Part shown: positions 2,684 through 59,013 of the stretch, one piece after another | Layout: every line of letters begins with the position of its first letter | Numbering within the stretch: the stretch's first letter is position 1 | Origin: Dillenia suffruticosa | Taxonomy: Eukaryota; Streptophyta; Magnoliopsida; Dilleniales; Dilleniaceae | Assembly: GCA_033439265.1 (NCBI GenBank) | Contig: JAVTVX010000026.1 | Coordinates: 761,501-825,500 of the forward strand | DNA length: 64,000 nucleotides | Reading direction: 5' to 3' | Made by a program: the position numbers and the translations under genes | Notes under the pieces: model-generated | The model's input: the letters and a program-made list of their open reading frames with translations, nothing else | What the model was told of the DNA's origin: nothing | Databases searched by the model: none

Positions 2684-4789
2684 AAATTTTATTTGTGTAA
2701 AGTTTGTAAATAAAAAGGTGTGGCATCACCTGGACTCAAACAGGATACCTTCATTGTGCTAGACTGACATGATAAACAACAACACTGTGACACCGTTGAT
2801 TTTGGACATTAAAATTTTCTTAGTCACTTAATTTGGGTTTGATTGTTTCTTTAAAAGTATTGAAAATAAAAAAATTACGCAAGTTTCATCTTGTTATTTT
2901 CAGTTAAAGTGCTGAACAAAAAATTTTATTTGTGCAAACCATGAGATGTAGTAGGTGTGACATGTTCAAAATTGAACCGAAGACTTTTTCTATGTTTTAC
3001 ACACGTGATAACAAACTAACCATGAAACCTTCTATTTGGGTCATTAAAATTTTTCTAGTGGCCCAATTTTGGTTTGAATATTACACTAAATAAATTCATA
3101 ACAACTAATTAAATGTCTCTTATCCCCTTCTTTTGGATTAAAGTCCTTAGAACAAAATTTTATTTGTGCAAACCTTGAGAAGACGCAAGTGTGGTATCGC
3201 TCAGACTCGAATCAGAGACCTTTAGTGTGTAAAACTAATGTGATACCCAACTACACCATGAGACCTTTCACTTGGGTCATGAAAATTTCATTAGTTACTC
3301 AATTTGGGTCTGAAACCCTAAAAAATTAATCATAGAGAAATTAACCCTTTCTTAACCCATTATTTTAAATTAAAGTGCCTAGGACAAAATTTTATTTGTG
3401 TAAAGCTTGAGAATAGGTAGGTATGCCATTGCCTAGACTTGAACTAGAGACATTCAATGTGATAGATTGATGTGAAAACCAACTACATCTTGACACCAGT
3501 GATTTGAATCATTAAAATTTTATTAGTAACTCAATTTGCTTAACAAATATCCTAAAAAATATTGATAATAAAAAAAGTAAGCCTCTCTCATCACATTATT
3601 TTGAATTAAATTGCTGAGAAGAAAATTTTATTTGTGCAAACCTTTAGAAGTTGCAAGTATTGCATCATCTGGACTTGAACCAGAGATCTTTAGTAAGATA
3701 ACTAACTACACCATGACTCCTTTCAATTGGGTTATTAAAATTTCATTAGTGACTCAATTTGGGATTGACTAACACTCTAAAAAAATTGTTCATAAAAAAT
3801 TATGCCTCTCTAAACCCTTTATTTTGAATTAAAGTGCCTATGACAAAGTTTTGTTTGTGCAAAGCTAGAGAATTGGTAGGTGTGGCATAGGCTGGACTCA
3901 AACTGGAGACCATCGGTATCTGAGATTGATGCAATAACCAACTTCACCATGACACTATTAATTCGGATCATTGAATTTCATTAGTGACTTAGTTTGGGTT
4001 TAATAGATTAAAAACTTGATCAGAAAAAGTTAAACCTCCTTTATCTCATTATTTTGAATGAAGATACTTATGACAAAATTTTATTTATGTAAATTTTGAG
4101 AATAAATAGGTGTAGCTTCATCCAGACTCAAAATGGAGACCTTTAGTATATTAGATTAACGTGATAACTAACTACACCATGACAATATTGACTTTGGACA
4201 TTAAAATTTTGTTAGTGACGTAATTTGGATTTGGCAGATACTCTAAACATATTGATAATAAAAAAAATTAAGTCACTTTCATCCTATCATTTTGAGTTGA
4301 TTATTTGTGCAACCTTAAGAAGCAGGTGTGGCATCATCCGGACTTGATCCGAAGACATTGTGTTAGAATCACGTGATAACAAACAACACCACAACACCTT
4401 TGATTTGGGTCTTTAAAATTTCAATACTGGCTCAATTTGGGTCTGAATGATGCTCTAAATAAATTCATAACAAACAAATTAAATTGTACTTATCCCATTA
4501 TTTTGAATTAAAGTGCTTAGAACAAAATTTTATTTCTGCAAAACTTGAGAACATACAAGAGTGGTGTTGCCCGGACTTGAACTGGAGACCTTTAGTATGT
4601 AAGGCTGACATGATAACCAACTACACCACAACACCTTTCACTTGGGTGATTAAAATTTCATTAATGACTTAACTTGGGTTTGATACTCTTAAAAAAATTG
4701 ATCAAAAGAAAATTAAGCCTCTGTTAACACATTATTTTAAATTAATGTTCCTAGGACAAAATTTTGAATGGCGAAAGCTTAGATCTAGG
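2684..4789 (-). repeat. tRNA-Val-derived tandem array, segment 1
   Basis: Nine tandem monomers of about 230-235 bp, with tRNA-like parts near 2,719, 2,956, 3,189, 3,422, 3,655, 3,888, 4,111, 4,325 and 4,560. On the minus strand each has a GGTGTC-like 5' end, a D-arm/A-box block, an anticodon arm with a valine-type loop, and a GGTTCGA-like B box. Between tRNA parts lies an AT-rich spacer with a conserved TTTT run about 40 nt past the tRNA 3' end. Monomers follow a six-type order. The copy near 3,655 lost its anticodon arm. The left edge abuts truncated copia RNase H and the right edge a retroelement fragment. All copies here are decayed. Confidence 0.85.
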
Positions 4790-5937
4790 ATGACATGTTT
4801 CTTTCTTGGGTTGACCTATGTAGCTTGGTTTAAGTCGACATATATATCTCCTAGGTTAACCTATGTGTTGTGAAGAACTTAATCCTAATTTTAGGTTGAT
4901 GTGCTTATATCTTTGGGTCGACCTATACATGCTAGGATCAACCTATCTTCCTTCATGGGTCGACCTTGGTTTTGAATTTCCTTAAAACTTTGATTCTCGG
5001 GTCAGCAAGTTAGTTCTCAGGTTGGCTTGTATCTATAGGTTAATCAATTTAACTTCTAGTATCGACTAATTAAAAGGGAACATTCAACTTACCATTGAGT
5101 TGGTGGATAGTTCAATGTGATTTCATCATCAAGGGTCGACTTATTCAAACATGGGTTGGCTCATTAAAGTTCCTAAGTCAATAGGTGTGTTGTTGAGTCA
5201 AATCGATGATTTGCTTTAACTCATGCTAGGTCAAAATGTTCAAAATTAGAGTCTGCATGTCTTTTCATTTTGACTATGGATAGATTCGATCTATATAAGT
5301 TATGACTTGTGTTCTAAGTGCATTTGGGACGACTTGCTAAGTGTATTAAACTAACATAGGTCAAACTCATCTATGAAAGGGGTTGACCTGTATGTGACTT
5401 AGACATATTTATGTGTGTTGAACAAGCTTATGTCAACATCTTTGATGGTAGGTGACTTATGTGATGTTTTAAATATGTTTTGATGCTAAGTGTTCATCGG
5501 GTTGACTTGTATGTGCTTGAGGGTTGACTTGTGTAGTTTTAAACCAAATGTTCTAAGTATGTGCAGGTCGAATTGTCGGTTGGCTTAGACAAGGATGTTC
5601 AAAGGTTAAGTTATGTTTAGGTTGACCTATTCATTCAAGAGGTCAACCTGTATATCTCACTAGGTCAAATGTTCATTCCATAGGTCGACATTTCTATGTT
5701 ACAAATTGGGGTTCCTATAGCTTAGGTCGACTTGTCTAGCATAGGAGTTGACCTAAATTCTTTGGTAGGTCGAATAAGCTTAATTTTTCTAAGGCAAACC
5801 TTAATGGGTCGACCTATGCACTCAGTAGGTCGAACTGGTCACCTAGTGCACGATTGCCTTTGTATTTCCAGGTTGTTCAAGATTTGATTATTCATATTAT
5901 CTCGTATGATCATCATCAAAACACCATTTGTAAAATA
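4790..5937 (-). mobile_element. Partial LTR rich in GTCGAC/GGTCGACC motifs
   Basis: About 1.15 kb of the type GGTTGACCTATG, GGTCGACCT, AGGTCGAACT and so on, with one motif every 20-60 bp in either orientation. The composition matches the LTR at 50,429-52,509, although the sequences are not closely alignable by eye. It ends just before a polypurine tract, so it is the 3' LTR of a minus-strand element. The outer end is missing. Confidence 0.6.
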
Positions 5938-5959
5938 ATCTTCCCCTTTTGATGATGAT
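5938..5959 (-). promoter_or_regulatory. Polypurine tract
   Basis: Minus-strand reading gives ATCATCAAAAGGGGAAGAT directly before the LTR start, the expected position and make-up of a plus-strand primer. The intact-looking equivalent in the larger element is at 45,264-45,277. Confidence 0.7.
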
Positions 5960-8027: not shown

Positions 8028-8780
8028 TTAGATCCAAATGATACTATAAATAAATTCATAACAAATTAAATTGGTATGATCCCATTATTTTGAATTAAAG
8101 TGCTCAAAACAAAATTTCGTTTCTGCAAACCATGATAAGACACAAGAGTGGCGTTACCCGAACTCGAACTAGAGACACTAAGGTAATAACCAACTACACC
8201 ATGACAACCTTCACTTGGGTCATTAAAATTTCATTAGCAACTCAATTTGGGTTTGATACTCTAAAAATTGATCATAGAAAAATTAAGCCTCTCTTAACCC
8301 ATTATATTGAATTAAAGTGAATTGAACAAAATTTTCTTTGTGTAAAGCTTGAGAAAAGGTAGTTGTGGCATCGCTTGGACTCGAATAGGAGATCATTAGT
8401 ATTTTAGATAGACGTGATAACCAACTACGCCATGATACCAAAGATTTGGGTCTTTAAAATTTTATTAGAGACTTAATTTGGGTTTGATTGATACTCTAAA
8501 ATATATTGATAATTAATATTGTAAGCCCCTCTTATCCTATTATTTTGAATTAAAGTACTGAGAACAAAATTTTATTAGTGTAAACCGTGAGAAGATGCAA
8601 GTGTAGCATCTCCCGTACTCAAATTAGAGAGCTTCAGTGTGTAAAATTGACGTGATAACCAAATATACCATGACTTCTTTCATTTGGGTCATTTAAATTT
8701 CATTAGTGACTCAATTTGGGTTTGACTTATACTCCAAAAATTGATCATAAAAAAATTAAACTTCTCTTAACCCATTAAAG
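8028..8780 (-). repeat. tRNA-Val-derived tandem array, segment 2
   Basis: About three monomers with tRNA-like parts near 8,147 (internally deleted in the anticodon arm), 8,366 and 8,604. The 70 bp before it (7,960-8,027) is scrambled array-like debris. The segment ends at the TAAAG target duplication of a solo LTR, which split the monomer spacer. Confidence 0.85.
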
Positions 8781-11589
8781 TGTCACGCCCCGAACCGGGA
8801 TCATGAACAACAGCCCGTTGCCCTGGATGCCGGCTGTATTTTTATGAAAAATTGGACAAAACCTCCCTATAAATCGGAGGTCTCCCATGTACAATTTCAC
8901 CTATATATCAATATTCATCTTATAAAATAAACAAAGGGCCATCCTGACCTCTCCAAAATCAACAAATCCCACAATCAATATCCAGAACAACACAGGCTAT
9001 AACAACGAATTTCCACAGTCCTAACCACAGACCTCTACTGCCATGCCCCGTCAAAGGCATGGACAGCCGCTAGTCGCCCCTCCTATGATTTAGAGGAGGC
9101 ACCGAGCAATCCTAGAGTACACTTCTAAGACATGACACATTCCCAAGTACTTACACAATGAACCAGAAATGCTTCAATGCAATGTTATGCAATGACATGT
9201 CCATATTTATACAGTCATCCCAGAATTATACAATGGTCGTCTATCGACCTCAGAATACATATACATCACCAATACAATTGCTAACTCACGAAATTGCGGC
9301 AGAAATATATGACTCCTCAAGTCCAGACCAAATCTCCCAATGATACTGAGCGTCCTAAAAGTAACGCTTCTTGCCAAATACTATCTCTGAAACAAGAAGG
9401 GAAGTGAGGGGTGAATACTTGGGGAAGAATACTCAGTGAGTAAGTGGATCAATACAATCATCAAATATGAAATGTGAAACTGGAGTGTCAAAGAATAAGT
9501 ATACGAATCATATTTCAAAATATTATGCTTTTCATTTCAACAATATATCATTAGCACGTATTTTCAAATCAAATATGCATCCAAAGCACTGTCACTAAAA
9601 ATCATAGGGCTGCCAGCCAAAAATGTCCTGGCAGAAGTCTACCGTGACCTATGACAGGCACACCGGGGGTGTTATATGCAAGTTTATTTAAAGTACTCTC
9701 TACCCCGACGTTGGCGACGAACCTCGTCCAGGTGCTAGACTTGGAGAGAGTATCCAAATCCTCCCCCTTTCAGGTTCAACCTGGTTAGTACCGTGTTGTT
9801 AATCAATATCACGACAACTCGTGAGATACCCCAGGCCTAGGCATATCCGGACGCCACTAAAGTATCTCTCACGGTGTCCTTCGTAGCTACGGAACAATAC
9901 ATATCAAAGCCCTCAAGGCCAAAATCAATATCATATCAAAATGCGTCGAAATCAGGTTCATAAACCAATGCAGCATAGAGCATAAAATGGCACATTATAC
10001 ATTTCAACCACATGGATGCATAATTTTATAATTCAACACAGTTTTTGGATACTCCATCGGTTCACAAAAATCAATTTTTAAAACCAGTCAAAACATTTCA
10101 AGCATACGACAAATCATGCTCATTCATCAAAATATTGTAAAACAGGGTTTACATATTAAACAAAAGTATTGAAATAAATCCCATTCACCGTATACGGGAA
10201 GGTGGTCACTCCCTATTTTTAAAAGCCAATTCAAATCTGACCGCTCGAGTCTCCAATGAGATTTTCCTAATTAATCATCACAATTCGATATCAGGTAAGG
10301 GCCTAGTAATGAATCTTCAATTTTCTTTCCAACCAATACTACTTAATTTGACAAAGTTTGTCCAAAAGTTGAAGAAATTTCATTTCTCTCACCTAGGGTT
10401 CCTCGGATCTCCGATCTAGCTTTTGTTCGCCCGTTGGTTTGGTCTAAAACCTGAATGTTTCCAAATTTGAAACAATTGTGAGCAATTTCTGTCCAATTAC
10501 TAAAGAAATTCAAAACCCTAGTGCGAAAATCGAACTTTGAGTCATTTACCTTCGCAGAGGCTCACGAACTGTCACGGGCCGTGGGCCTGGCGGGTTGATG
10601 GGCTGGCCTACTGGTGGGCTCGCGGGTCAGCAGGCCGCAGTGGGCTCGCGGCTGTGCGCTCGTGGCTGGGGCATGCTCACAGGCTAGGGCTCACACTCGG
10701 GAGTTGGATTGCGCGCTCACGCAGTGGGTCTCGCACTGGAGCACTTGTGCTCGGGCTGGGGGCGCTCGAGCAGTGGATCGCACGCTTGGCTCGCACGGAT
10801 GGTCGCGCTGGGGGCGCGCACTTGCACAGGGTAGCTCGCGCTGAGGCGTGCTGGCGCTCGTGTAGGCGCCTGTAGGGGCGCGCTGGCGCTCGTGCAGGAG
10901 CGTGCAGAGGCACGTAGGGGCGCGCTAGTGCAGGGACCGCGCAGGTTGAGGGGCGCTCGGGCTCGCGCTCACGGATGAAGGGTCGCGCGCTCGCGGGAGG
11001 AAGTAGCAGCGGCGGTGGGTGGCGCATGGCGGCTTCGGGCGAGGGAACCGGGTGGTGGCTGCGCGGATCGCGGTGGAGGGTGGCGGATTCGCGGTGGAGG
11101 GCGATCGCGAGAGATAGAGAGGGAGTGAATAGTGAGAGAGAGAATTTGAGAGAGAAAGATAGAGAAGGAGAGAAGAAGAAGAAGAAGAAGATGGTGACGG
11201 TGGTAGTGGCGGTAGGTGACGGCGGAGGGCCCCAAAATGGTCGCGGAGGAGGGCGGCAGCCGCGGAAGACGAAGAGGCAGGGAGAAGGGGAGATGAAGAG
11301 TCAGGGAGAGAGAGATGAAGAGAGAGAGAGAGAGAAGGATTGGGGCTAAAAGCCTTAATCCCAAATTAGGCGGGGGTGTTGCATTTTGTCTTAAAATGCA
11401 GTACTCCGCTGTTTTGTTTCTTTTTTTTTTTATATAGAGAATATATAAAATGAAAAAAAAAATCCTAAAAATTCAACCACTCCAAATAAATAAAAAATTT
11501 TCCATATATATAAAGTGAGAAATATTGTTATTAAATTTCTAGACCGAAATACAAAAATATGGACACTGCGGTGTCGGTGTTACATAAAG
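8776..11589 (-). mobile_element. Solo LTR A (2,804 bp) with TSD TAAAG
   Basis: Bounds are TGTCACGCCC at 8,781 and GGTGTTACA ending at 11,584. They are flanked by perfect 5-bp duplications TAAAG at 8,776-8,780 and 11,585-11,589. Read on the minus strand it begins TGTAACACC and ends GGGGCGTGACA, the form seen in long plant gypsy-type LTRs. It has no primer site, polypurine tract or retroviral domains, so it is best read as a solo LTR left by LTR-LTR recombination. The middle (about 10,540-11,110) is strongly GC-rich, followed by GA-rich repeats to 11,340. Open frames across the GC-rich part are compositional. A homologous copy lies at 15,014-18,270. Confidence 0.85.
10540..11345. other. GC-rich tract and GA-rich low-complexity in solo LTR A
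   Basis: A GC-rich, CpG-containing block of about 570 bp grades into GAGAGA/GAAGAA repeats. Frames on both strands stay open here only because of base composition; no recognisable domain was found. The equivalent block in the second LTR is at 17,060-18,150. Confidence 0.7.
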
Positions 11590-14500
11590 TGCCTAGGATA
11601 AAATTTTATTTGTGTAAAGTTTAAGAATAGGTAGATGTGGCATTGTTCAGACTCAAACCGGAGACCTTCAGTGTGTGAGACTAACGTGATAACTAACTAC
11701 ACCATGACACTATTAATTAGGTTCATTAAAATTTCATTGGTGATACAATTTGGGTTTGACAGATACTTTAAAAAAATTGATAACAAAAAGTTAAGTCTCT
11801 CTTATTTCATTATTTTGCACGAAGTTGCTGAGAACAAAATTTTATTTGTGTAAAGGTTGAGAATAAATAAGTGTGGCATTGCCTAGACTCGAACTAGAGA
11901 CCTTCAGTATGTTAAACTGACGTGATAACTTACAAGACCCTGACGCCGTTCATTTTGGAGATTAAAATTTTCTTACCGACTTAACTTGGGCTTGACGATA
12001 TTCTAAAAATATTGATAATAAAAAAATTAAACCATTTTCATCCTTTTATTTTGAGTTGAAGTGCTGAACACAAAATTTTATTTATGAAAACCTCGACAAG
12101 TGGTAGGTGTGGCATCACCAGGACTCAAACCGAAGACCCTTTTTGTGTTAGACTCATGTGACAACAAACTACACGACGACACCTTCAATTTGGGTCATTA
12201 AAATTTCAATAGTGGCTCAATTTGGTTCTAAATGATACTCTATACAAATTCATAACAAACAAATTAGATCACTCATATCCCATTATTTTGAATTAAAGTA
12301 CTGAAAAGAAAATTTTATTTCTACAAACGTTGAGAATATGCAAGTGTGGCATCGCACGGACTTGAATCGGAGATATTCAGTGTGTAAGACTAACATAATA
12401 AGCAACTACACCATGATACCTTTGGCTCGGGTCATTAAAATTTCATTAGTGATTCAATTTGGGTTTGACACTCTAAAAAAATTGATCATAGAAAAATTAA
12501 ACCTCTCCTAACCCATTATTTTGTATTAAAGTGCCTAGGACAAAATTTTCTTTGTGTAAAGCTTCAGACTAGCCAGGTGTGACATTACCAAGACTCAAAA
12601 TGGAGACCTTCAGTGTGTTAGATAGACAAGATAACCAACACCACCATGACACCAATGATTTGGGTCATTAAAATTTTATTTGTGACTTAATTTGTGTTTG
12701 ATTGATACTTTAAAAAAATATTGATAACAAAAATTGTAAGCTTCTTTTCTCCGATTATTTTGAATTAACGTGCTGAGAAGAAAATTTTATTTGTGCAAAC
12801 CTAGAGAAGATGCAATTGTAGCACCTCTTGGACTCAAGCTGGAGAGTTTCAGTGTGTAAGACTGACGTGATAACCAACTACACTATGACTCCTTTCATTT
12901 GGGTCATTTAATTTCATTAATGACTCAATTTGAGTTTGACTTATACTCTAAAAAATTGATCATAAAAAAATTAAGCCTCTCTTAGCCATTATTTTGAATT
13001 AAAGTGTCTAGGACAAAATTTTATTTGTGTAAAGCTTGAGAATAGGTAGGTCTGGCCTCGCCCAAACTCGAATTGGAGACCTTCAGTGTGTAAGACTAAC
13101 ATGACAAACAACTATACGACAACACCATTAATTTGTATCATTAAAATTTAACAAGTGACACAATTTGGGCTTGATAGATACTCTAAAAAATTGAAAATAA
13201 AAAGAAGCCTCTCTTAACTCATTATTTTGATTGAAGTTATCGAGAACAAAATTTTGTTTGTGTAAAGCTTGAGAATAAATAGGTGTGGCATCACCTGAAC
13301 TCAAACCGGAGACCTTCAGTTTGTTAGACTGACATGATAACCAACTATACCACGATACCATTGATTTTGAACGTTAATATTTTCTTAATTTGGGTTTGGC
13401 TGATCCTCTAAAAACATCAATAATTAAAAAATTAAGCCAGTTACATCTTAATATTTTTGAGTTGAAGTGCTGACCACAAAATTTTATTTGTGAAAGCCTT
13501 GACAAGTGGTAGGTATGGCGTCACATAGATTTAAAGCGAAGACCTTTTTTGTGTTTGAATCATTTGAATCATGGGACCACAAACTATACCACGACACCTT
13601 TGATTTGGGTCATTAAAATTTCAATAGTGGCTTAATTTGGGTCCGAGTGATACTCTACATAAATTCATAACAATCAAATTAAATCTCTTTTATCCTAATA
13701 TTTTCAATTGAAGTGCTCAAAACAAAATTTTATTTCTACGAATCATGAGAGGACGCAAGAATGGCATCGCCTGGACTCGAGCTAGAGACCTTCAATGTGT
13801 AAAACTAATGTGATAACCAACTAGATCTCAACACCTTTCACTTGGGTCATTCAAAATTCATTAGCGACTCAATTTGGGTTTGATACTCTAAAAAAATTGA
13901 TCATAGAAAAATTAAGCACTCGAACTAGAGACCTATGTGTTAGACGGATGTGATAACTAACTACTCCGCAACACCATTGACTTGGGTTATTAAAATTTTA
14001 TTAGTGACTCAATTTGGGTTTGACAGATACTCTAAAATATATTGATAATGAAAATTGTAAGCCTCTCTTATCCCATTATTTTGAATTAAAATGCTCATAA
14101 CAAAATTTTATTTGTGCAAACCTTGAGAAGATACAAGTGTTGCATCTCCTGGACTCAAACTGGAGAGCTTTAGTGTGTAAGACTGACATGATAACCGACT
14201 ACATTGTGACTCCTTTCATTTGGGTCATTTAAATTTCATTAGCGACTCAATTTGGGCTTGACATATACTTAAATAACAGATCATAAAAAATTAAGCCTCT
14301 CTTAACCTATGATTTTGTATTAAAGTGCATAGGATGAAATTTTATGAGGGTAGAGCTTGAGAAAAGGCAGGTGTCACATTGCCTGGACTTAAATCGGAGA
14401 CCTTCAGTTCATGGGATTGAGTGATAACCAACTATACCATGACACTATTAATCTAGATCATTAAAATTTCATAAAAGACTTAATTTGGGTTTGATGAATA

Positions 14501-15013
14501 CTCTAAAAAATTGATAATAAAAAGTTAAGCCCCTCATATCTCGTTGTTTTGAATGAAGTTACTTAGAACAAAATTATATTTTTGTAAAGCTTGAGAATAA
14601 ACAATTGTGGCATTGCCTGGACTAGAACCAGAGACCTTCAATTTAGAATATTAGACTAACTTGATAACCAACAGCACCATGATAGCATTACTTTTGCACA
14701 TTAAAATTTTTTTAGTGACTTAATTTGGGTTTGACTCGTACTCTAAAAATGTTGATAATAAAAAAATTAAGCCACTTTCATCCTATGATTTTGAGTTGAA
14801 GTGCTGATCACAAAATTTTATTTGTGAAAACCTAGAGAAATGGAGGGTGTAGCATTGCAAGGATGCAATCCAAAGACCTTTTTGGCGTTAGAATCACAAG
14901 ATAACAAACTACACCACGACACCTTCAATTTAGGTCATTAAAATTTCAATAGTGGCTCAATTTGGTTCCGATTGATACTCTAAATAAATTAATAACAAAC
15001 AAATTAAATCTCT
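11585..15013 (-). repeat. tRNA-Val-derived tandem array, segment 3 (six-monomer order)
   Basis: tRNA-like parts near 11,638, 11,872, 12,108, 12,343, 12,580, 12,813, 13,050, 13,286, 13,520, 13,762, 14,138, 14,373, 14,607 and 14,850. A deletion at about 13,915 fuses two monomers. Spacer-defined types repeat in a six-member order with a period near 1.4 kb (12,108 to 13,520). Anticodon-loop readings include UAC, CAC and AAC. The right edge is cut by solo LTR B at the TCTCT duplication. Confidence 0.85.
11638..11711 (-). tRNA. tRNA-Val-like copy, CAC anticodon, probably decayed
   Basis: A 74-nt minus-strand unit whose anticodon loop reads CTCACAC (anticodon CAC, valine). The anticodon 3' side ACTGA would pair with TCAGT, but the 5' side reads TTAGT, leaving one mismatch. 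Position 1 is A instead of G and the T-arm is partly mismatched. It is one of the clearer CAC-type monomers. I regard it as a pseudo-tRNA unless folding shows otherwise. Confidence 0.5.
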
Positions 15014-16141: not shown

Positions 16142-16407
16142 AAATCGGCTGGCACGTAGCCCCATGCATCCCATCACCAGTCGGCCGGGCATATAGCCCC
16201 ATGCATAATATCATAACGTCGGCCGGGCATACAGCCCAATGCATAATATCATAAAGTCGGCCGGGCATACAGCCCAAAACATAATATCGTAAAGTCGGCC
16301 GGGCATACAGCCCAAAACATAATATCGTAAAGTCGGCCGGGCATACAGCCCAAAACATAATATCGTAAAGTCGGCCGGGCATATAGCCCAAATGTGTAAG
16401 TAAATCC
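16142..16407. repeat. 38-bp minisatellite, seven copies
   Basis: GTCGGCCGGGCATACAGCCC-type units begin at 16,180, 16,218, 16,256, 16,294, 16,332 and 16,370, exactly 38 bp apart, with a degenerate copy at 16,142. The copies at 16,256-16,370 are nearly identical. The unit is absent from solo LTR A, so it expanded in this copy's lineage. Repetitive frames on the minus strand are a by-product. Confidence 0.95.
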
Positions 16408-18101: not shown

Positions 18102-18153
<52 letters not shown>

Positions 18154-18255: not shown

Positions 18256-18257
<2 letters not shown>

Positions 18258-46088: not shown

Positions 46089-46093
46089 GATTC

Positions 46094-47065: not shown

Positions 47066-47389
47066 ATTTTTGGGTTCATTTTGAGAGATAAAAGTTACAT
47101 ACTCACATTGGTTTAGAAGTGCAGATCTGGTTCTAACTCCTGAATTAATACTCCCAATTATATTCTCTAGATTTATATCTTTCCTAATCTGAAGGTATTT
47201 GATCTCTTGCTCCTGTTGTGTTTCATTGCTTACCTCCTATACAGTGAGTTCATTTGATTCCTTTTTCTGACTGTTTACTTCATCAGATAAGTCTTTTCAT
47301 TTAGTCTCTCAGATATTTCCTTATCATCCATCGTTCTTTGATTGGAATCATTTTCTTTATCAAACTCTACATGAATTGATTTATCCACT

Positions 47390-48397
47390 GTCATGGTTCT
47401 TTTATTATAGATTCTATAAGCTTTGCTTGCTAAGGAATAGTCTAGGAAAATTCTTTCATTACTTTGGCATCAAATTTACCTAATGCTTCTTTTCCATTGT
47501 TTAAAACAATGCATTTGCATCTAAACACCTTAAAGTATGCTATATTTGATTTTCTTCCTTTATAGAGTTCATAGGGAGTTTTCTTTAGAATTGGTTTTAC
47601 TTGTGCTCTATTTTAAATATAGCATGTAGTGTTTACAGTTTCTGTACAAAAGAACTTAGGTAGGTTATTTTCACAAAATATTATTCTAGCCATTTCTTAA
47701 AGGGTTCTATTTTTCCTTTCTACAATCCCATTTTGTTGAGGTGTCATAGGAGCTGAAAAATTATGGTCAATCCCAAAATAACTATAGAAGTCATCCATAG
47801 TTTTATTTTCAAACTCTTTGCCATGATCACTTCTAATGCTTTAATGGGTATTCCCTTTTCATTTTGAATTGTCTTGTATAATTTTATGAATGTCTCACTG
47901 GCTTTTTCCTTTTTGGCAAAAAACAAAACCCATGTGAATTTAGAGTAATAATCAATGATTACAAACCCATAATGTTTTCCTCCCAAACTTTGTATTCTAG
48001 TTGGTCCAAACAAATCAATATGAAGAAGTTCTAGAGGACTTCCTATTGACACATAATTTTTAGATTTAAAAGATGTTTTTGTTTGTTTTATTTTCATACA
48101 TACATCACACAATTTGTTCTTTTCAAATTTTAATTTTGGAAGACTCTTAACTATATCTTTCCTAACTAATTTTAAAATTGTGTCCGTGCTAGGATGTCCT
48201 AAACTTCTATGCCACAACCATGATGAATTTTTGTTTACAGCAACTAAACATGATTCATTTGAGATTTCTAAATGATCTAAATTAATTGCATATATGTTTT
48301 CTCTCCTGTGACCAATAAATTTAATAGAGTCAGAGGATTTGTCAATGATAGTGCATGCATCAGATTCAAACAAGTTTGTCATACAATTGGCTAACAC
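47390..48397 (-). pseudogene. copia integrase
   Basis: The HHCC zinc-binding part is visible: HRSLGHPSTDTILKLVRK, then CDVCMKIKQTKTSF. The catalytic core begins LLHIDLFGPT. Near 47,843 the frame shifts and the second aspartate context (SDHGKEF) continues in another frame, followed by TPQQNGIVERKNRT with the catalytic glutamate. C-terminal sequence such as VFRCKCIVLNNGKEALGKFD follows to about 47,390 with further stops. All three catalytic acidic positions can still be read, but not in one frame. Integrase would insert element cDNA into the genome. Confidence 0.9.
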
Positions 48398-48412
48398 TTA
48401 ATAACCTAAATC

Positions 48413-48661
48413 TCAGTTTAAAAACAAGAAACACATTCTTAATTTGACAGTCAGAGGACTTCCACCTATGTTGCCTGTTCCGATGATTTTTCCCTTTGAA
48501 TTGTCTCCAAAAGCAACCTTTCCTCCTTTCTTGCTTTCAAGAAAAGAGAATTTTAATGCATCTTCGGTCATGTGTCTTGAGCATCCACTATTTATGCACC
48601 ACACAGACTTACTGGGAGATTCTCTTAATTTAAAGTTGCCATTGGTACCCATAGTACCCAT
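48413..48661 (-). pseudogene. copia protease (active-site Asp changed)
   Basis: The frame reads SVWCINSGCSRHMTED, aligned with the copia protease site that is normally LDSGCSRHMT. The catalytic aspartate is N. The domain continues GGKVAFGDNSKGKIIGTGNIG, typical of the family. It stops before the integrase frame. The same kind of change (D to N, one transition) hits RT YVDD. Confidence 0.88.
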
Positions 48662-48699
48662 ATCTTTTTGGGTCTGGCTGAATTAGCTTTGAATTTATC

Positions 48700-49486
48700 T
48701 TTGGGGATCCATTTTGAGGTTGTTCTTGAGGAGTTTAGAAATCCACAATCATAAATTGAATTTATAGATTTCAGATTTATGCCCAACCTTCATGCATGTG
48801 TGACATCTTTCTAATTTATCATTTTCAGTGCTCGACACAAAAAACCTATATAACTTTTTTGGTGTTTAGTTAGGGTTAAATCCTAATCCTGCCTTATCAA
48901 ATATGGCTCTTTAGACTCTTAGCATGGCATCTAACTTTTCTTGTCCTTGAATAAATTTCATTACTATAATGTTTTACCTGTGATTCTTTTCCTTTTGTTC
49001 ATCCAATTCTTTCTTTAGAAGTATATTTTCATTTACTAGAGTGTCATTATCTTTCTCTGAACATTCGACATTCAATTTCTTCTCGAGTTCATCAATATAC
49101 AGATCTAATTCAGTATTTTTCTTTTTTAGCTCATTTACTTCACTTTTTGATTTTTCTGATATTTTGACATTTTCATCCAGTTCTTTCCTTAGCAAATTAT
49201 TTTTTCTTTTTAGTCTTTTTAATTCCTTTAGTGATTCTACTAATGTCTCATGTAATTCAGTGATAAAAAAATCATTTTTCAGATTTAGAACATGATGAAT
49301 AGAGTATGGAGATTACCTTACTGTCTGAAGATTCTTCATTTTCCATGAAACATACGTTTGCCTATTCCTCATTTTGCTCTTCATCACTTGAGCTTGAATC
49401 TTCATCACTCCATGCAGCAAGTGCCTTTTTCTTTCTCTTCTCTCTTCTGTCCTTTTTTTCTTTTCATCCTTTTTTGAGAGAATGAC
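48700..49486 (-). pseudogene. Gag-protease linker with coiled-coil-like segment
   Basis: Between the zinc knuckle and protease. The minus-strand piece 49,195-48,974 reads as a highly charged Lys/Glu/Leu-rich stretch (for example KKNTELDLYIDELEKKLN) with heptad-like spacing, as in the long gag-pol linker of Sireviruses. Stops and frameshifts break it. Confidence 0.55.
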
Positions 49487-50369
49487 AGTCAGCCTTCATA
49501 TGCCCCAGCTTTTTGCATTTAAAGCATCTAATTTCTTCCTTTTTTTGACTTTTTGAAGACAGACTTGTTCTTGTTCCTCTTCCTCATCATGAATTTTCTG
49601 AATTTTCTCGCTAGAAGAGCTTCATTTTCTTCGTCTTCTTCTTCTTCTGAGTTAGATGTGCTTTCCTCATTATTAGCTTTTAATGCTACTCCTTTGCTTC
49701 TTTGGCAGACTCTTTCATGTTTAGCTTCATCTCATGGGTTATTAAAGATCCCACAAGCTTATCCATTGTCAGAGTCTCAAGATTCTTGGATTCCTCAATT
49801 GCTGTCACCTTGGACTTCCAAGACTTTAATAGACTTCTCAAAATTTTGTCCACCATATCTTCTTGTGGAATTCCTTTTCCAAGTAGTCTAAACTCATTTG
49901 TTACTTTGTTGAATCGTGTGATCATCTCGCTGATAGTTTCTTCATCCTTCATCTTGAAGACTTCATATTCTTGCTTCAGTAATCTGATTTTGTTTTTGCG
50001 AACTTGATTAGTCCCTTCATAGGTTGTTTCGAGTCTTTCCCAAATTTCCTTTGTTATTATGCATGATGAGACTCGATTGTATTCGTTGACGCTTTGTGCA
50101 AGGTGAAGAAGGTTGATGGCTTTACAGTTAGCTTGATAGGTTTTCTTCTGTTCCACAGTTATATTTTTCAATTTGACCGACACATGTACTCTATCTATTT
50201 CTTCAGTGGGGAATGCAACTCCTTCGATAATTTCCTATGCATGTAGGTCGTGTGCAATGATGAAGTTGCGCATCCTTTGCTTCCAATAGCTGAAGTTGCT
50301 TCTATTGAAGAATGATGCATGGTTTGTTGAGCAAGCTTCAACTGGCACGTTGTCTCCACTGATTGCCAT
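49487..50369 (-). pseudogene. copia gag with CCHC zinc knuckle
   Basis: The start MAISGDNVPVEA at 50,369 is 47 bp inside the primer site. Typical gag features follow: SYWKQRMRNFI, then LKNITVEQKKTYQANCKA, IWERLETTYEGTNQVRKNK, MKDEETISEMITRFN and MDKLVGSLITHEMKL. After a stop near 49,686 an acidic region rich in E/D/S, RKFRKFMMRKRNK and the knuckle CFKCKKLGHMKADC (about 49,528-49,487) are read in shifted frames. A TAG lies at about 50,235. This acidic/basic block before the knuckle is typical of Sirevirus gag. It would form capsids; broken here. Confidence 0.9.
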
Positions 50370-50413
50370 TTGGATTTTTGGTGTTAAGCTATTAGGCTTC
50401 TTGACAACACACC

Positions 50414-50428
50414 CGCTTTGATACCAAT
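50414..50428 (-). promoter_or_regulatory. Primer-binding site (tRNA-iMet type)
   Basis: Minus-strand TTGGTATCAAAGC immediately follows the LTR end (AATAACA). It matches the tRNA-iMet primer site with one change (AAAG for AGAG). Confidence 0.88.
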
Positions 50429-52509
50429 TGTTATTCAACTAGAGGGGAAGGGTGAATAATTGAATATGGACTATTTGAAACTTTTTTAGAATTTAAAACA
50501 ATATGGCAGTAAATGAAAATCAAGTGTAAGAAAATACAGAGAATTTTTATAGTGGTTCCACCAAATCCAGTGTATGTCCAATCCCAGGCTCCCCCTGGAT
50601 TTTTCACTAAATGCTTAGTTTACAAACTTGATTACATGTTCAAGTTCAACCTCATATAGTGTTACGTCTGAACACCACAATTTAATCTTGCTCAGACTAA
50701 ATTTGACTTCTCCAGACTTAAGGCAGTGACACTCACTCCTTAGTCTTTGACACTTGAATTAATCTATGAAATAAATGTCAATAATTGAGGCTTGCTTTCC
50801 TCAGATTTGACAGTGTGAAAAATTTTTTTGAGACACTTAATGCAATTTCAAACTTTAAATACAGAGATGAAAGTACATAGAGCTTTTAATTCAAGTCGTT
50901 GTGTCTCATCTATTTCGTAAGTCTCGTCACACTCTCCATTTTTTGCTTCCCAATATTTATTGAGGCTTTGAATAGATCCATTTAGGGTTAGTGATGGTTG
51001 TTGCATTCGAACGTTAGGCATTTAATTTTCGCCATTAAAACTTCTACAACTATTCCTTCATTCCTGTTGAATCTTCGTTCTTTTTACTGGCGTCTCTTTT
51101 AAATATGCCAATCAGACTTTGTTTGTACTACATTTGAACGTTAGCTTTGATAAAAAAGAAAAAATTTCAAAAATTGAAGAAATAAGGGGTCCGTTAGGTT
51201 CATAATTGTTTCTCAGATCTGGTTTCTAACACATGTCGGTCGACAAGTCTATTGTAGACGTCGACCTGAATTTGAATCATTCCTAATGTATTTCCATGCA
51301 AATAGGTCGACAAGATACTCTTCCAGGTCGATAAGGAACTATGCCAAATAAAATTGGTCGACATGTAATTCTTAATTGGTCGATGTGTTCATAAGTGTCG
51401 ACAAGTTTTCAGTCGTGTCGATGTATAATGTTTCAAACTTTGTGAGGATTAGCTCGAAAAGTCATTTACATACATCGACATGTTCCTATTCAAATAATAA
51501 ATTGGTCGATGTGTGGAACTCAATTGGTCGATGTGCATATGCTGTGTCGAAACGAGATAACGGCTCGACGTGTGTCTTAATGAGCAAACACACATTAGGT
51601 CGACATATCTGATAATATACATTGACATGCTATTTTACAATTTTTTATTAATAGACCTGAGTAATTTAATTGGTCAATGTGTTCTACAGGTCAACATGAC
51701 TTTTACTGTGTCATGTGTGTTTATTTCAGAAACATAATGGACAAGTCAACATATGCTCATCAAGGGTTGATGTGTTACTATTTATTTATTAAATTGGTCA
51801 ATGTGTCTAGGTGAATAGGTCTATGTGTTTTTAGCTAGGTTGAGATGCATAGTAATGGGCTGATGTGTACATTTCAGAATCAAGGACTGACAAGTTGATG
51901 TGTTAAACACTCAGGTTGATGTGTTTCTGTTGAGAGCTTAAATTGGTCGACATAGTGTATGAAATTAGTTTACCTAGCACTGTTCAGGTTGATATGTTGC
52001 AAATCAGGTTAATGCGTATTTGAAAAACAAGTTGATGTGTATGGAGAACATGTTTATCTGTCACTATTCAAATGTGAAATTGGTTGATGTGTTAGAATGA
52101 ATTGGTCGATACGTCACTATTCCTGTAATCTTATGTCTACAAGATTTGTGTAGACATCGATGTCCTCATGCGTTCTCTTTTCTCAGTGCTGATGTCTGAT
52201 TTGTGCAGGTCGATGTGCTTCTGCAATTTGTCAATGTGTAATTTTATATTGGTCTACTTGACAACCTATAGGTTGATGTGTGCTTGTGTGGGTCGAAGTG
52301 TTCAGACATATGTTTATTATGGAAAACATGTGGCTCAGGTCGATAAGAACATCAAATAGGTCGATGTGTGTGTATGAATGTCATAGGTCAATGTATTTTC
52401 TAACCAGGTTGACCTGTACTGTAGATTTCAGAATTTTCTAACTATTTTTTTATTTTCTTGAATTATTTTTCTTTCACTCTTTCATCAATAAAACTCTACT
52501 TGGTCAACA
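50429..52509 (-). mobile_element. Right (5') LTR, full length 2,081 bp
   Basis: On the minus strand it runs from TGTTGACCAAGTAGAG to CTAGTTGAATAACA. The half nearest 52,500 to 51,240 is packed with GTCGACC/GTTGATGTG motifs every 20-50 bp. It is the reference used here to recognise the split left LTR. It differs from the left copy at many positions, so the insertion is old. Confidence 0.88.
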
Positions 52510-52802
52510 AAAACACGGACTACAACATTTTATTTTTGAAAACATTGAGAAGTGGTAGGTGTGGAATCGCACGGACTCAAGTTGAGGACATTTTTTGTGT
52601 TAGAATCATGTGACAAGAGACTGCACCATGACACCATCGATTTCGGTCATTAAAATTTCAGAAGGGGCTCAATGCTGATCTTAATGATACTTTAAATAAA
52701 TCCATAACAAACAAATTAAATCTTCCTTGCCCCAATATTTTTCTATTAATGTGGTCAGAAAAAAAATTTTTTTTTTCTGTTAACCATGAGAAGACACAAG
52801 AG

Positions 52803-52876
52803 TGGCGACGCCCGGACTCGAACCGGAGACCTTTAATGTGTAAGACTGATGTGATAACCAACTACACCACGACACC
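52803..52876 (-). tRNA. tRNA-Val-like copy, UAC anticodon
   Basis: 74 nt. T-arm TCCGG-TTCGAGT-CCGGG matches the plant tRNA-Val consensus exactly, and the A box is intact. Acceptor GGTGTCG/CGTCGCC has a single U-U mismatch. The anticodon stem has one mismatch on its 3' side (ATTAA for ACTGA). Anticodon UAC. Confidence 0.5.
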
Positions 52877-55571
52877 ATTGATTTTGGGCAATAAAGTTTC
52901 CTTAGTCTTTTAATTTGGATTTGACTAATGCCTTTAAAATATTTATAATAAAAAACTTGGCAACATTAATCCTATTATTTTGAATTGAAATGCGGACCAC
53001 AACATTTTATTGGTGAAAACATTGAGAAGTGGCAGGTGTGGAATCGCACGGACTCGAGCTGAGGACCATTTTTTGAGTTAGAATCATGTGATGAGAGACT
53101 ACACCACGACTCCTTCAATTTGGGTCATTAAAATTTTAGAAGGGGGTTAAATGTTGGTCTTAATGATCCTTCAAATAAATCCATAACAAACAAATTAAAT
53201 CTCTCTAGCCCCATTACTATCTATTAACGTGGTCAGAACAAAATTCTTTTTCCGTTAACCATGAGAAGATGCAAGAGTGGTGTCGCCCAGACTCGAAATG
53301 GAGACTTTTAGTGTGTAAGATGGTTGTGATAACCAACTACACCACGACACCTTTCACTTGGGTCATTAAAAGTTAATTAGCGACTCAATTTGGGATTGAT
53401 ACTCTAAAAAAATTGATCATTGGAAAACTAAGCATCTCTTAACCCATTATTTTGAATTAAAGTGCCTAGGACAATATTTCCTTGGTGTAAACCTTGAGCA
53501 TATGTAGGTGTTGCAATGGCCAGACTTGATCCAGAGACGTTCAGTGTATGATACTTACGTGATAATCAACTGCACCATGACATCATTAATTTGGATTGTT
53601 AAATATTCATTATTTACTCAATTTGGATTTGATAGATACTCTTGAAAATTCATAATAAAAATTTAAGCATCTCTTATCTCATTATTTTAAATGAAGTTAC
53701 CAAGAACAAAATTTTATTTGTGTGAAGCATGAGAGTAAACAACTGGGGACTGTCAGTATGTTAGACTGATGTGATAACCAACTGTAGCATGACACCATTG
53801 ATTTTGGACAACAAAATATCCTTAGTCTTTTAATTTGGGTTTCGCTGATACTTTTAAAATGTTGATAATAAAAACTTAGCGACATTAATCCTATTATTTT
53901 GAATTGAAATGCTGACCATAGCATTTTATTTGTGAAAACATTGAGAAATGACAGGTGTGGAATCGCACGGACTCGAGCTGAGAACCTTTTTTGTGTTAGA
54001 ATCATGTGACAAGAGATTACACCACGTCCTTCGATTTGGTTAATTAAAATTTTAGAAGGGCCTCGATGCTGGTCTTAATGATACTTTAAATAAATGAATA
54101 ACAAACAAATTAAATCTCTCTTGCCCCATTACATTTCTATTAACGTGATCTGAACAAAATTTTTTTTCCGTTAACCAAGAGAAGATGCAAGAGTGGTGTC
54201 ACCTGAACTTGAACCGAAGACCTTTAGTGTGTAAGACTGACGTGAAAACCAGCTACACCAAGACACCTTTCACTAGGGTCATTAAAAGTTAACTAGCGAC
54301 TCTATATGGGTTTGATACTATAAAAAAATTGATCATTGGAAAACTAAACCTCTCTAAACCCATTATTTTGAATTAAAGTGCCAGGGAAAAAATTTCCTTG
54401 GTATAAACCTTCAGCATATGTAGGTGTTGCAATGCCCAGACTCGAACCAGACACCTTCAATGTATGATACTGACGTTGGATTGTTAATATTCATTAGTGA
54501 CACAATTTGTATTTGATAGATACTCTTGAAAATTGATAATAAAAATTTAAGCATCTCTTATCTTATTATTTTGAATGAAGTTACCAACAACAAAATTTTA
54601 TTTGTGTGAAGCTTGAGAATAAACAAATGTGGCGTCACCCGGACTCGAACCGGAGACTTTCAGTGTATTAGAGTGACGTAATAACCAACACCACGACACC
54701 ATTGATTTTGGAAATTAAACTTTCCTTAGTCTTTTAATTTGGATTTCACAGATTCTTTTAAATTGTTGATAACAAAAAAACTAAGCCACATTCATCCAAT
54801 TATTTTGAGTTTAAAATGCTGACCACAATATTTTATTTGTGAAAACACTGAGAAGTGGCAGGTGTGGCATCACACGGACTCCAACTGAGGGCATTGTTTG
54901 TGCTAGAATCACGTGACAAGAAACAACACCACGACACCTTTGATTTCGGTCATTAAAATTTCAGAAGGGGCTCAATTCGGGTTTGAATGATACTTTAAAT
55001 AAATCCATAAGAAACAAATTAAATCTCTCTTGCCCCATTATTTTCAATTAACGTGGTCAAAACAAAACATTTTTTTCCGTAAACCTTGGGAAGATGTAAG
55101 AGTGGTGTCACCCAGACTCAAACTAGAGGCCTTCAAAGTGTAAGAGTGACGTGATAATCAACTATACCACGACACCATTGATTTTGGACAATAAAGTTTC
55201 CTTAGCCTTTTAATTTGGGCTAGACTGATGCTTTTAAAATGTTGATAATAAAAAGCATCCCAACATTAATCCTATTATTTTGAATTGAAATGCTGACCAC
55301 AACATTTTATTAGGGAAAACATTGAGAAGTGGCAGGTGTGGAATCGCACAGACTCGAGCTGAGGACCATTTTATTTGTTAGAATCATGTGACAAGAGGCT
55401 ACACCATGACAACTTTGATTTGGATATTTAAAATTTCAGAAGAAGCTCAATGTTGGTCTTAATGATACTTTAAATAAATCCATAACAAACAAATTAAATC
55501 CCTCTTGCCCCATTATTTTTCTATTAACGTGGTGAAAATTTTTTTTTGTTAACCATGAGAAGACGCAAGAG

Positions 55572-55645
55572 TGGCATCACGCGGACTCGAACCGGAGACC
55601 TTTAGTGTGTAAGATTGACAAGATAACCAACTACACCATGATACC
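55572..55645 (-). tRNA. tRNA-Val-like copy, UAC anticodon, decayed
   Basis: 74 nt with intact TCCGG-TTCGAGT-CCG T-arm core and A box. The loop CTTACAC gives anticodon UAC. Acceptor ends and the anticodon stem carry mismatches. Confidence 0.4.
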
Positions 55646-56006
55646 TTTCACTTGGGTCCTTAAAAGTTAATTAGCAACTCAATTTGGATTTTATACTCTA
55701 AAAAAATTGATCACTAGAAAACTAAGCCTCTCTTAACCCATTATTTTGAATTAAGTGCTTGGGACAAAATTTCCTTGGTCTAAACCTTGAGCATATGTAG
55801 GTGTTGCAATGCCTAGACACGATCCAGAGACCTTCAGTGTATGATACTGACGTTAGATAGTTAAATATTCGTTAATGACACAATTGTATTTGATAGATAC
55901 TCTTGAAAATTGAAAATAAAATTTTAAGCAACTCTTATCTCATTATTTTGAATGAAATTACGAACAACGAAATTGTATTTGTGTGAAGCTTGCGAATAAA
56001 CAAATG

Positions 56007-56079
56007 TGGCTTCGCCCGGACTCGAACCGGAGACCTTCATTGTGTTAGACTGACTGATAACAAACTACACCACGACACC
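56007..56079 (-). tRNA. tRNA-Val-like copy, AAC anticodon, 1-nt deletion
   Basis: 73 nt. The 3' strand reads CGAAGCC, the form I recall for ordinary plant tRNA-Val(AAC). The T-arm TCCGG-TTCGAGT-CCGGG is perfect and the loop CTAACAC gives anticodon AAC. A one-base deletion lies between the D and anticodon arms. Confidence 0.45.
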
Positions 56080-57802
56080 ATTGATTTTGGACATTAAACT
56101 TTCCTTAGTATTTTAATTTGGGTTTCACTGATTCTTTAAAATTGTTGATAATAAAAAAACTAAGCCGCATTCTTCCTATTATTCTGAGTTCAAAATGCTG
56201 ACCACAATATTTTATTTGTGAAAACACTGAGAAGTGGAAGGTGTGGCATCGCACGAACTCCAACTAAGGGCATTTTTTGAGCTAGAATCACGTGACAAGA
56301 AACAACACCACGACACCTTCGATTTTGGTCATTAAAATTTCAGAAGGGGCTCAATTTGGGTTTGAATGATACTTTAAATAAATCCATAGGAAACAAATTA
56401 AATCTCTCTTGCCCTATTATTTTCTACTAATGTGGTCAAAATAAAATATTTTTTCCATAAACCTTGGAAAGACGCAAGAGAGGAGTCACCCGAACACAAA
56501 CCAGAGGCCTTCAGAGTGTAAGTGTGGCATGATAACCAACTACACCACGACACCATTGATTTAGGGCAATAAGGTCTCCTTAGTCTTTTAATTCGGGTTT
56601 GTCTGTTGCATTTAAAATGTTGATAATAAAAAGCATGGCAACATTAATCCTATTAAAATGTTGAGAAGTGGCAGGTGTGGAATCTTATGGACTCGAGATG
56701 AGGACCATTTTTTGTGTTAGAATCATGTGACAAGAGACTAAACCATGACACCTTCGATTTGGGTCATTAAAATTTTAGAATGGGCTAAATGCTGGTCTTA
56801 ATGATACTTTAAATAAAACCATAACAAACAGATTAAATCTCCCTTGCCCCATTATTATCTATTAACATCATTAGAACAAAATTTTTTCCGTTAACCATGA
56901 GAAACAGCAAGAGTGGCGTCACCGACTCGTACCGGAGACCTTCAGTGTGTAAGAATGACGTGATAACCAACTACACCATGACACCTTTCACTTGGATCCT
57001 TAAAAGTTAATTAGCGACTCAATTTGGGTTTAATACTCCAAAAAAATTGATCATTGGAAAACCAAACCTCTCTTAACCCATTATTTTGAATTAAAGTGCC
57101 TGGGAAAATATTTCCTTGGTGTAAACCTTGAGCATATGAAGGTGTTGCAATACCCAGACTAAAACCAGAGACGTTCAGTGTATGATACTGACGTGATAAT
57201 CAAATGCACCTTGACATCATTAATTCAGATTGTTAGATATTCGTTAGTGACTCAATTTGGATTTGATAGATACTCTTGAATGAATTTACCAAGAACAAAA
57301 TTTTATTTGTGTGAAGCTTTAGAATAAACAAATGTGGCGTCGCCTGGACTCGAACTGGAGACCTTCGTGTATTAAACCGATGTGATAACCAACTGTAGCA
57401 TGACACCATTGATTTTGGACAACAAAATATCCTTAGTCTTTTAATTTGGGTTACACTGATACTTTTAAAATCTTGATAATAAAAAACTTAGCAACATTAA
57501 TCCTATTTTTTTTAATTGAAATGCTGACCACAACATTTTATTTGTGAAAACATTGAGAAATAGCAGGTGGGGAATCGTACGGACTCGAGCTGAGAACCAT
57601 TTTTGTGTTAGAATCATGTGACAAGAGACTACATCATGACACCTTCCATTTAGGTAATTAAAATTTCAGAAGGGGCTCAATGCTAGTCTTAATGATACTT
57701 TAAATAAATTCATAATAAACAAATTAAATCTCTCTTGCCCCATTATTTTTCTACTAACATGGTCAAAATTTTTTTTCCACTAACCATGAGAAGATGTAAG
57801 AG

Positions 57803-57876
57803 TGGTGTCTCCCGAACTCGAACAGGAGACTTTCAGTGTGTAAAATTGACGTGATAACCAACTACACCACGACACC
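57803..57876 (-). tRNA. tRNA-Val-like copy, UAC anticodon-type, decayed
   Basis: 74 nt with 5' GGTGTCG and A box TAGTTGGTTATCAC intact. The loop region reads TTTTACAC, retaining anticodon UAC but changing position 32. T-arm TCCTG-TTCGAGT-TCGGG has a mismatch. Confidence 0.4.
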
Positions 57877-59013
57877 TTTCACTTGGGTCAATAAAAGTTA
57901 ATTAGCGACTCAATTTGGGTTTGATACTCTAAATAAATTGATCATTGTAAAACTAAGCCTCTCTTAACCCATTATTTTGAGTTAAAGTGCTCGGAACAAA
58001 ATTTCCTTGGTGTAAACCTTGAGCATATGTAGGTGTTGCAATGCCTAGACTCAATCCAGAGACCTTTAGTGTAGGATACTGACGTTGGATTGTTAAATAT
58101 TCATTATTGATTCAATTTGTATTTGATAGATACTCTTGAAAATTGATAATAAAAATTTAAGCTTCTCTTATCTCATTATTTTGAATAAAGTTACCAAGAA
58201 CAAAATTTTATTTGTGTAAAGCTTGAGAATAAACAAATGTGGCGTCGTTCGGACTCAAACTGGAGACCTTCAGTATGTTAGATTGACATGATAACAAACT
58301 ACACCATGACACCATTGATTTTGGATATTAAAATTTCCTTAGTCTTTTAATTTGGGTTTCACTGATTCTTTTAAATTGTTGATAATAAAAAACCTAAGCC
58401 ACGTTCATCCTATTATTTTGAGTTCAAAATGCTGACCACAATATTTTATTTATGAAAACACTGAGAAATGGCAGGTGTGGCATCACATGGACTCCAACTG
58501 AGGGCATTTTTTGTGCTAGAATAACGTGACAAGAAACAACACCACAACACCTTTGATTTTGGTCATTAAAATTTCAGAAGGGGCTCAATTCGTGTTTGAA
58601 TGATACTTTAAATAAATCCATTACAAACAAATTAAATCTCTCTTGCCCCATTATTTTCAATTAACGTGGTGAAAACAAAATATTTTTTTCCGTAAACGTT
58701 AGGAAGATGCGAGAGTGGCGTCACCCAGGCTTAAACCGGAGGCCTTCAGAGTGTAAGAGTAACGCGATAACAAACTACACCATGACACCATTGATTTTGG
58801 ATAATAAGGTTTCCTTAGCCTTTTAATTTGGGTTTGACTAATGCTTTTAAAATGTTGATAATAAAAAACATGGCAACATTAATCCTATTATTTTGAATTG
58901 AAATACTGACCACAACAATTTATTTGTGAAAATATTGAGAAGTGGTAGGTGTGGAATCGGACAGACTCGAGCTGTGGACCATTTTCTGTGTTAGAATCAT
59001 GTGACAAGAGACT

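Follow-up and report, generated by a model that had tools for sequence, protein, structure and literature searches.

How does a functional gene become the monomer of a satellite? We address this question for a stretch of 64,000 nucleotides from Dillenia suffruticosa (assembly GCA_033439265.1, contig JAVTVX010000026.1, positions 761,501 to 825,500 of the forward strand; hereafter the window), which holds a long tandem array built from a valine transfer RNA (tRNA-Val) gene and its flanks. We consider it probable that selection once acted on a cluster of valine tRNA genes, and that the cluster, after amplification and loss of constraint, degenerated into DNA that resembles a satellite. This single locus keeps both phases, selection in the differences between types of unit and release in the differences within types, and it touches two open questions, the origin of satellites and the fate of tRNA clusters in plants.

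Extent and monomer of the array

Monomers were called in the 64-kb window with an iterated nhmmer profile of 232 columns at a cut-off of E <= 1e-3. The profile yielded 148 matches, all on the minus strand and spanning 2678 to 59016, the weakest with E = 1.6e-7; 133 of the 148 were near full length (more than 190 of 232 columns). The median distance from monomer to monomer was 234 bp (interquartile range 230-237, n = 141), and the monomers added together amount to 32,345 bp. A first-pass annotation had estimated about 33 kb of ~230-bp monomers in 140-145 copies and one orientation, in good agreement with these values. Its proposal that a tRNA-Val gene plus flank now serves as the repeating unit of a tandem array of satellite type was likewise supported, with about 148 copies in the window. 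The monomer consists of a 74-nt tRNA-Val-type gene at columns 80-153, with flanks of ~79 bp on the 5' side and ~79 bp on the 3' side.

Inserted elements interrupt the array into seven segments (letters A to H denote the unit types described below):

2678..4767, minus strand: segment 1, ten profile matches, quartet types B/D/A/C
8077..8780, minus strand: segment 2, three matches, then a spacer stub reaching an inserted element resembling a long terminal repeat (LTR)
11585..15013, minus strand: segment 3, fifteen matches, B-D-A-C higher-order repeat
18271..24880, minus strand: segment 4, thirty matches, B-D-A-C higher-order repeat
25758..36280, minus strand: segment 5, B-D-A-C higher-order repeat, E/H types from ~35.7 kb
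37574..40823, minus strand: segment 6, younger E-F-G-A / H-E-F-G-A higher-order repeat
52510..59013, minus strand: segment 7, younger higher-order repeat E-H-E-F-G-A-E-F-G-A...

The visible edges are a CACTA-like terminal repeat from 59014 on the right and a decayed copia remnant on the left. Since both are set by transposable elements, neither need be the true end of the array. At E <= 1e-3, no monomer was found elsewhere in the window, and when viral contigs were scanned with a pattern for the tRNA core, 0 matches resulted. Chance similarity due to low complexity was excluded by a reversed, non-complemented control, which gave 14 profile matches versus 154 in the real window, both counted at E < 10. 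An assembly artefact is unlikely, because mean pairwise identity across all monomers is 0.718, an average difference of 28%, and because the insertions carry target duplications.

Unit types and higher-order repeats

The array had been taken for a head-to-tail repeat of ~230 bp. The monomers are in tandem as described; the annotation had overlooked a higher-order repeat of four and of six types. Clustering with reassignment yielded eight types (28 monomers in B, 26 in D, 31 in A, 24 in C, 8 in F, 9 in G, 7 in H and 15 in E), and spacer columns alone gave an unchanged label for 144 of the 148 monomers. On the plus strand, the order of types is B-D-A-C on the left, and E-F-G-A and E-H-E-F-G-A on the right. 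As a lag analysis ignored gaps and fragments, type order was used in its place. Among 141 neighbour steps, 83 follow the first cycle (B-D-A-C) and 126 follow either cycle; 1000 label shuffles within the left and right halves averaged 34.4 steps in cycle and never exceeded 51. Higher-order repeats are frequent in satellite DNA, though not obligatory.

The consensus sequences of F and B (0.90 identity), G and D (0.89) and E and C (0.90) are counterparts, which identifies the right-hand repeat as a derived form of the left-hand quartet. Spacer divergence from the type consensus is 0.052-0.081 for the right types versus 0.094-0.109 for the left types. A block of ~3.7 kb at the far right is present in tandem duplicate (52510-55400 and 56192-59013, 85.3% identical).

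Diagnostic columns show that type H arose by recombination between A and F, with the crossover inside the tRNA. Of the 23 diagnostic columns up to column 79, H matches A at 22, and from column 86 it is F-like at 22 of 26 (one A, three neither). Column 86 is of CpG type, so that the safe bounds for the switch are columns 79 to 114, within the 5' half of the tRNA. No other stretch of agreement between F and A is as long as the tRNA, which is therefore a plausible source of the homology for the crossover. A crossover of F with A that deletes G from the plus-strand order F-G-A would produce exactly E-H-E-F-G-A.

Three valine anticodons

The valine anticodon loop noticed at first is correct as to the amino acid; that there are three anticodons, distributed by unit type, had been missed. 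For the type consensus sequences, ARAGORN reports Val-AAC for A, Val-TAC for B, F and H, and Val-CAC for D; it found no tRNA in the consensus of C, E and G. With types assigned from the spacer alone, the wobble base is T in B (24 of the 25 units with a base), F (8/8) and H (6/6), A in types A (27/29), C (22/23) and E (15/15), and C in G (9/9) and D (16/24). Type D is the least uniform, with 16 C, 4 A, 2 T and 2 G.

According to a survey (PMC12652284, table 1), plant Val-AAC and Val-CAC genes are concentrated in a single sequence cluster, and Val-TAC genes in a different one. Judging by these survey clusters, the units with TAC on a body of AAC type probably acquired their anticodon by a change within the gene cluster from which the array arose.

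Constraint between types and its absence within types

Net divergence (divergence between types minus the mean within types) was computed from 139 of the 148 monomers, for the tRNA without the wobble column and for the spacer. For A-B, it is 0.005 in the tRNA and 0.115 in the spacer, for A-D 0.001 and 0.076, for B-D 0.004 and 0.085, and for F versus the right-hand A units (A2) -0.001 and 0.264. For the difference between tRNA and spacer, here with the wobble column, the bootstrap intervals are all below zero. The majority consensus sequences of F and A2 differ at 2 of 74 tRNA positions (the wobble and one CpG-type position) versus 47 of 151 spacer positions (p = 1e-7). Near-identical tRNAs beside diverged flanks imply that the founder genes of the types were under constraint.

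Within types, constraint is firmly absent. The ratio of tRNA to spacer divergence is 1.36-2.08 in nine of nine groups, and stem pairing lies in the range of column shuffles, 44 to 411 of 500 shuffles reaching the observed value (lowest for type F). With this ratio and no excess of pairing over shuffles, the monomer is without coding constraint, as is required of a satellite. When CpG, TG and CA columns are omitted, the ratio by type consensus is 0.99-1.83, with a lower bootstrap bound above 1 in three of nine groups. An overall lack of constraint, as suggested by pooled identity (0.709 for the tRNA, 0.722 for the spacer), was overturned on separating divergence between types from divergence within types.

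The same measure can be applied from the left-hand types to their right-hand counterparts. A to A2 (tRNA 0.002, spacer 0.051) and B to F (0.013 and 0.074) are constrained, whereas D to G (0.093 and 0.067) and C to E (0.043 and 0.054) are not. Based on consensus differences, the contrast of A and B with D and C has a Fisher p of 0.032, or 0.009 without CpG-type changes. With A and B constrained and D and C unconstrained, the later amplification would have started from a quartet with working A and B. The unit types that died early act as internal controls, and loss of constraint can be timed relative to amplification.

Present state of the tRNA units

The Rfam tRNA model RF00005 matches 29 places at its gathering score of 29 bits, 34 with laxer filters and 46 at E <= 10; the majority of copies are too decayed for Rfam scoring. 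The top match aligns through all 71 model positions. The matches cover whole 74-nt tRNAs, which rules out a similarity limited to the A and B boxes, an outcome that the first-pass annotation had named as grounds for refutation. The units that serve as examples are:

38750..38823, minus strand: best preserved tRNA-Val(TAC), type F, 55.3 bits (the top score), standard pairs at 20/20 stem positions, an intact A box and a single departure from the B box
38278..38351, minus strand: well preserved tRNA-Val(AAC), type A, 50.1 bits
52803..52876, minus strand: best preserved type H (TAC), 48.9 bits
22409..22641, minus strand: example of a type D monomer, CAC anticodon

The tRNA part is gap-free in 105 of the 148 units. 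Among these, one has all 20 stem pairs, 47 have an A box and six have a strict B box, and none of the 105 combines all stem pairs, both boxes and a valine anticodon. A tRNA-Val-like unit had been reported for each monomer; the monomers do hold tRNA-Val genes, but no fully canonical one among the gap-free units. The trinucleotide CAA, a plant tRNA start-site motif (PMC11700998), occurs within 12 nt upstream of 117 of 139 units, versus 71.3 expected from shuffling of those 12 nt. A TTTT run within 60 nt downstream was counted for 130 of 139 units, a raw count in an AT-rich flank.

The 22 tRNAs that ARAGORN reports, without exception on the minus strand, comprise 18 Val (13 TAC and 5 AAC), 2 Met (CAT) and 2 Ile (AAT). 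The Met and Ile calls, at 26150-26692 and 54629-54700, are decayed Val units with a C to T change of the third anticodon base; this base is T in nine of nine type G units. A single such change in the anticodon thus turns a decayed Val unit into a nominal Met or Ile gene, a trap for annotation. Three of the calls (Met, Met, Ile) lie inside 1 kb at 26150-26692 by ARAGORN. The definition of a plant tRNA cluster in PMC11700998 is at least three tRNA genes per kb after the tRNAscan-SE high-confidence filter.

C-to-T differences from the type consensus, on both strands, depend on context: the frequencies for CG, CHG and CHH are 0.269, 0.192 and 0.099 in the tRNA, and 0.227, 0.204 and 0.079 in the spacer. 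For A or T positions, the transition frequency is 0.027-0.062. CG and CHG are known contexts of plant cytosine methylation, and their excess is probably a trace of it. In Arabidopsis, clustered tRNA genes are reported to be silenced by methylation (PMC12308677, PMC11700998). The array today most likely yields little or no functional tRNA, although the unit at 38750-38823 might be transcribed.

Origin of the array and alternative explanations

From the repeat, its types and anticodons, the two regimes of divergence, the recombinant H and the mutation bias, all of which can be read in the DNA, we infer past function, methylation, silencing and an order of events as follows. A nuclear gene of tRNA-Val(AAC) type with ~160 bp of flank would have given rise to a small cluster by head-to-tail duplication. 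The spacers would have diverged, while in at least three members the tRNA, under selection, would have hardly changed apart from the wobble base, which would have become A, T or C, giving the anticodons AAC, TAC and CAC, and the fourth member, C, would have decayed early. The quartet, C-A-D-B in the order of transcription, would then have been multiplied by unequal crossing-over into a higher-order repeat of ~0.94 kb. Surplus copies, released from constraint, would have decayed at methylation-type rates, probably in silent heterochromatin. A later amplification would have involved a quartet with a dead D (now G) and a dead C (now E), with A and B (now F) still constrained. A crossover of F with A inside the tRNA would have generated the hybrid H and converted E-F-G-A to E-H-E-F-G-A, and the array would finally have been broken by retrotransposons and a CACTA element. 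More tentatively, and with somewhat less than even confidence, we suggest that the anticodon-complete valine quartet (AAC, TAC and CAC plus the dead fourth) was the selected unit, and that its constrained tRNA was the crossover site which built and rebuilt the higher-order repeat. Selection on the gene would then have seeded the satellite that later buried it.

Several points weigh against a selected cluster that decayed. The pair A-C takes an intermediate place (0.46), and neither B-C nor D-C can be distinguished from neutral, a pattern that is consistent with early loss of C. Besides the wobble base, two to three bases differ among the tRNA consensus sequences of A, B and D, every difference being C/T or G/A. 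The type founders are majority consensus sequences or net distances and not sequenced ancestors. The apparently faster decay of the tRNA within types is largely a C-to-T bias. Functional copies may exist outside the window. Gene conversion, finally, could mimic selection on the tRNA.

If gene conversion from dispersed valine tRNA genes, and not selection, had homogenised the tRNAs before amplification, identical tRNAs next to diverged flanks would be predicted equally well, and type H shows that exchange inside the tRNA is possible. Conversion would, however, have spared two of four neighbours, as D to G and C to E changed in the tRNA and A and B did not. Moreover, the three wobble bases would have had to stay distinct, and a TAC gene on an AAC-type body would be an unusual donor (PMC12652284, table 1). 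We therefore regard conversion as unlikely. A living tRNA-Val cluster, mostly silent and switched on in some tissues like the Ser-Tyr-Tyr cluster of Arabidopsis, is in our view quite unlikely. The 34 units at or above the Rfam tRNA cut-off, the fully paired unit at 38750-38823 with its intact A box and the constraint on the founder types would all fit, but in nine of nine groups the tRNA is no better conserved than its flank, and the lack of a canonical copy among the 105 gap-free units, only six of them with a strict B box, also argues against it.

A role of the array for the chromosome rather than for tRNA (binding of TFIIIC, a boundary or a centromere) might explain why period, higher-order structure and length are satellite-like. 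The boxes decay freely (A box in 47 and strict B box in six of 105 units), and 234 bp is, to our knowledge, not the usual length of a centromeric monomer, both of which make retention for such a role improbable. The internal A and B boxes and the tRNA-related core are also what a tandem short interspersed element (SINE) or another tRNA-derived retroelement would contain. A SINE starts with its tRNA part at the 5' end, continues with an unrelated body and a tail, and is found as dispersed copies with target duplications. Yet the whole tRNA is present with a pairing 3' acceptor strand, the monomer includes the 5' flank and the CAA motif, which are unexpected in a retroposed RNA polymerase III transcript, and the window has no dispersed monomer at E <= 1e-3, so that this origin is hardly credible.

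Inserted and flanking elements

The following elements lie within or beside the array:

8781..11584, strand not assigned: TG...CA ends, 5-bp target duplication TAAAG, read as a solo LTR
15014..18270, strand not assigned: TG...CA ends, 5-bp target duplication TCTCT, interpreted as a solo LTR
36281..37573, strand not assigned: TG...CA ends, target duplication of 5 bp (GAATC), interrupts a tRNA unit in its 3' acceptor strand
40824..51683, minus strand: Ty1/copia retrotransposon with gag, integrase and reverse transcriptase pieces, terminal repeats 88.5% identical
59014..64000, strand not assigned: CACTA-like element, terminal CACTACAGG..., splits a type E tRNA unit, far end beyond the window

The terminal repeats of the copia element differ by a Kimura two-parameter distance of 0.121, or ~4.7 million years at 1.3e-8 substitutions per site per year, and the host part of the array must be at least equally old. 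Its reverse transcriptase piece has matches of up to 65% identity, and the organisms named among the matches listed are land plants of many families. Adjoining its terminal repeat, 51684-52509 is an inverted relative of ~0.8 kb, 86.6% identical to the copia-internal sequence 45280-46087. The CACTA-like label relies on the terminal motif CACTACAGG, which we take to be characteristic of such elements.

The first two insertions share the initial TGTCACGCCCCGAACCGGGATC and the final TTACA with different target duplications, which suggests solo LTRs from a single family. The interior of the second is GC-rich with many short tandem repeats, including a 38-bp repeat in 5.6 copies at 16179-16392. At 24881-25757, an 877-bp insertion without clear terminal repeats or target duplication is located at the exact 5' start of a tRNA unit. 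The 3.3-kb stretch 4768-8076 between array segments contains a 61-bp tandem duplication (6393-6514); the flanking profile positions 182 and 225 are discontinuous in one monomer, which means that sequence was also lost. A transposon preference for the tRNA was considered and dropped, as other insertions are in the spacer and numbers are too small.

Comparison with known systems

In the open-licence literature, to which the search was confined (subscription papers being outside its scope), we found no plant satellite built from tRNA-Val. The first-pass annotation held that plant tRNA clusters comprise only tens of copies. Most are indeed far smaller than this array, but the statement was slightly low, since the survey gives 2 to 110 genes; with one exception, the other plant clusters have far fewer units (PMC12652284).

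The nearest system in kind appears to be the Ser-Tyr-Tyr (SYY) cluster on chromosome 1 of Arabidopsis, with 27 Ser-Tyr-Tyr units over ~40 kb that are heterochromatic and methylated (PMC12308677, PMC10701932). Like the valine array, it consists of tandem units with several tRNA genes each, and a core of good copies lies next to variable, pseudogene-bearing regions. It differs in having three genes per unit for two amino acids, and in a conserved core that is inducible in root cap cells (PMC12308677, PMC10701932). The valine array, in contrast, comprises 148 monomers for one amino acid and three anticodons, in two higher-order layers and without a canonical copy.

The Pro clusters, the maize Ile cluster (28 genes) and the Arabidopsis Cys cluster resemble the valine array in that one gene with its flank was tandemly duplicated, with pseudogenes (PMC11700998, PMC12652284, PMC10701932). 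A higher-order repeat was not found described for other plant tRNA clusters in the available text of these three sources. Tandem tRNA pairs of unlike anticodon are listed for several amino acids, valine included (PMC12652284). Outside plants, the tRNA genes of Entamoeba form similarly long tandem arrays, with up to five tRNA genes per unit. The Entamoeba copies are uniform, the available text reports no clear evidence for pseudogenes, and the arrays hold most of the tRNA genes of the organism, whereas the valine array is diverged and decayed (PMC2652664). Satellites of Harttia catfish share tRNA-related sequence with the valine array, but there parts of tRNAs are mixed with pieces of SINEs and long interspersed elements in complex monomers, in place of a complete gene with its flanks (PMC11955569). 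Within the 64-kb window, the valine array behaves like a satellite today, and its ancestor was probably a cluster of genes.

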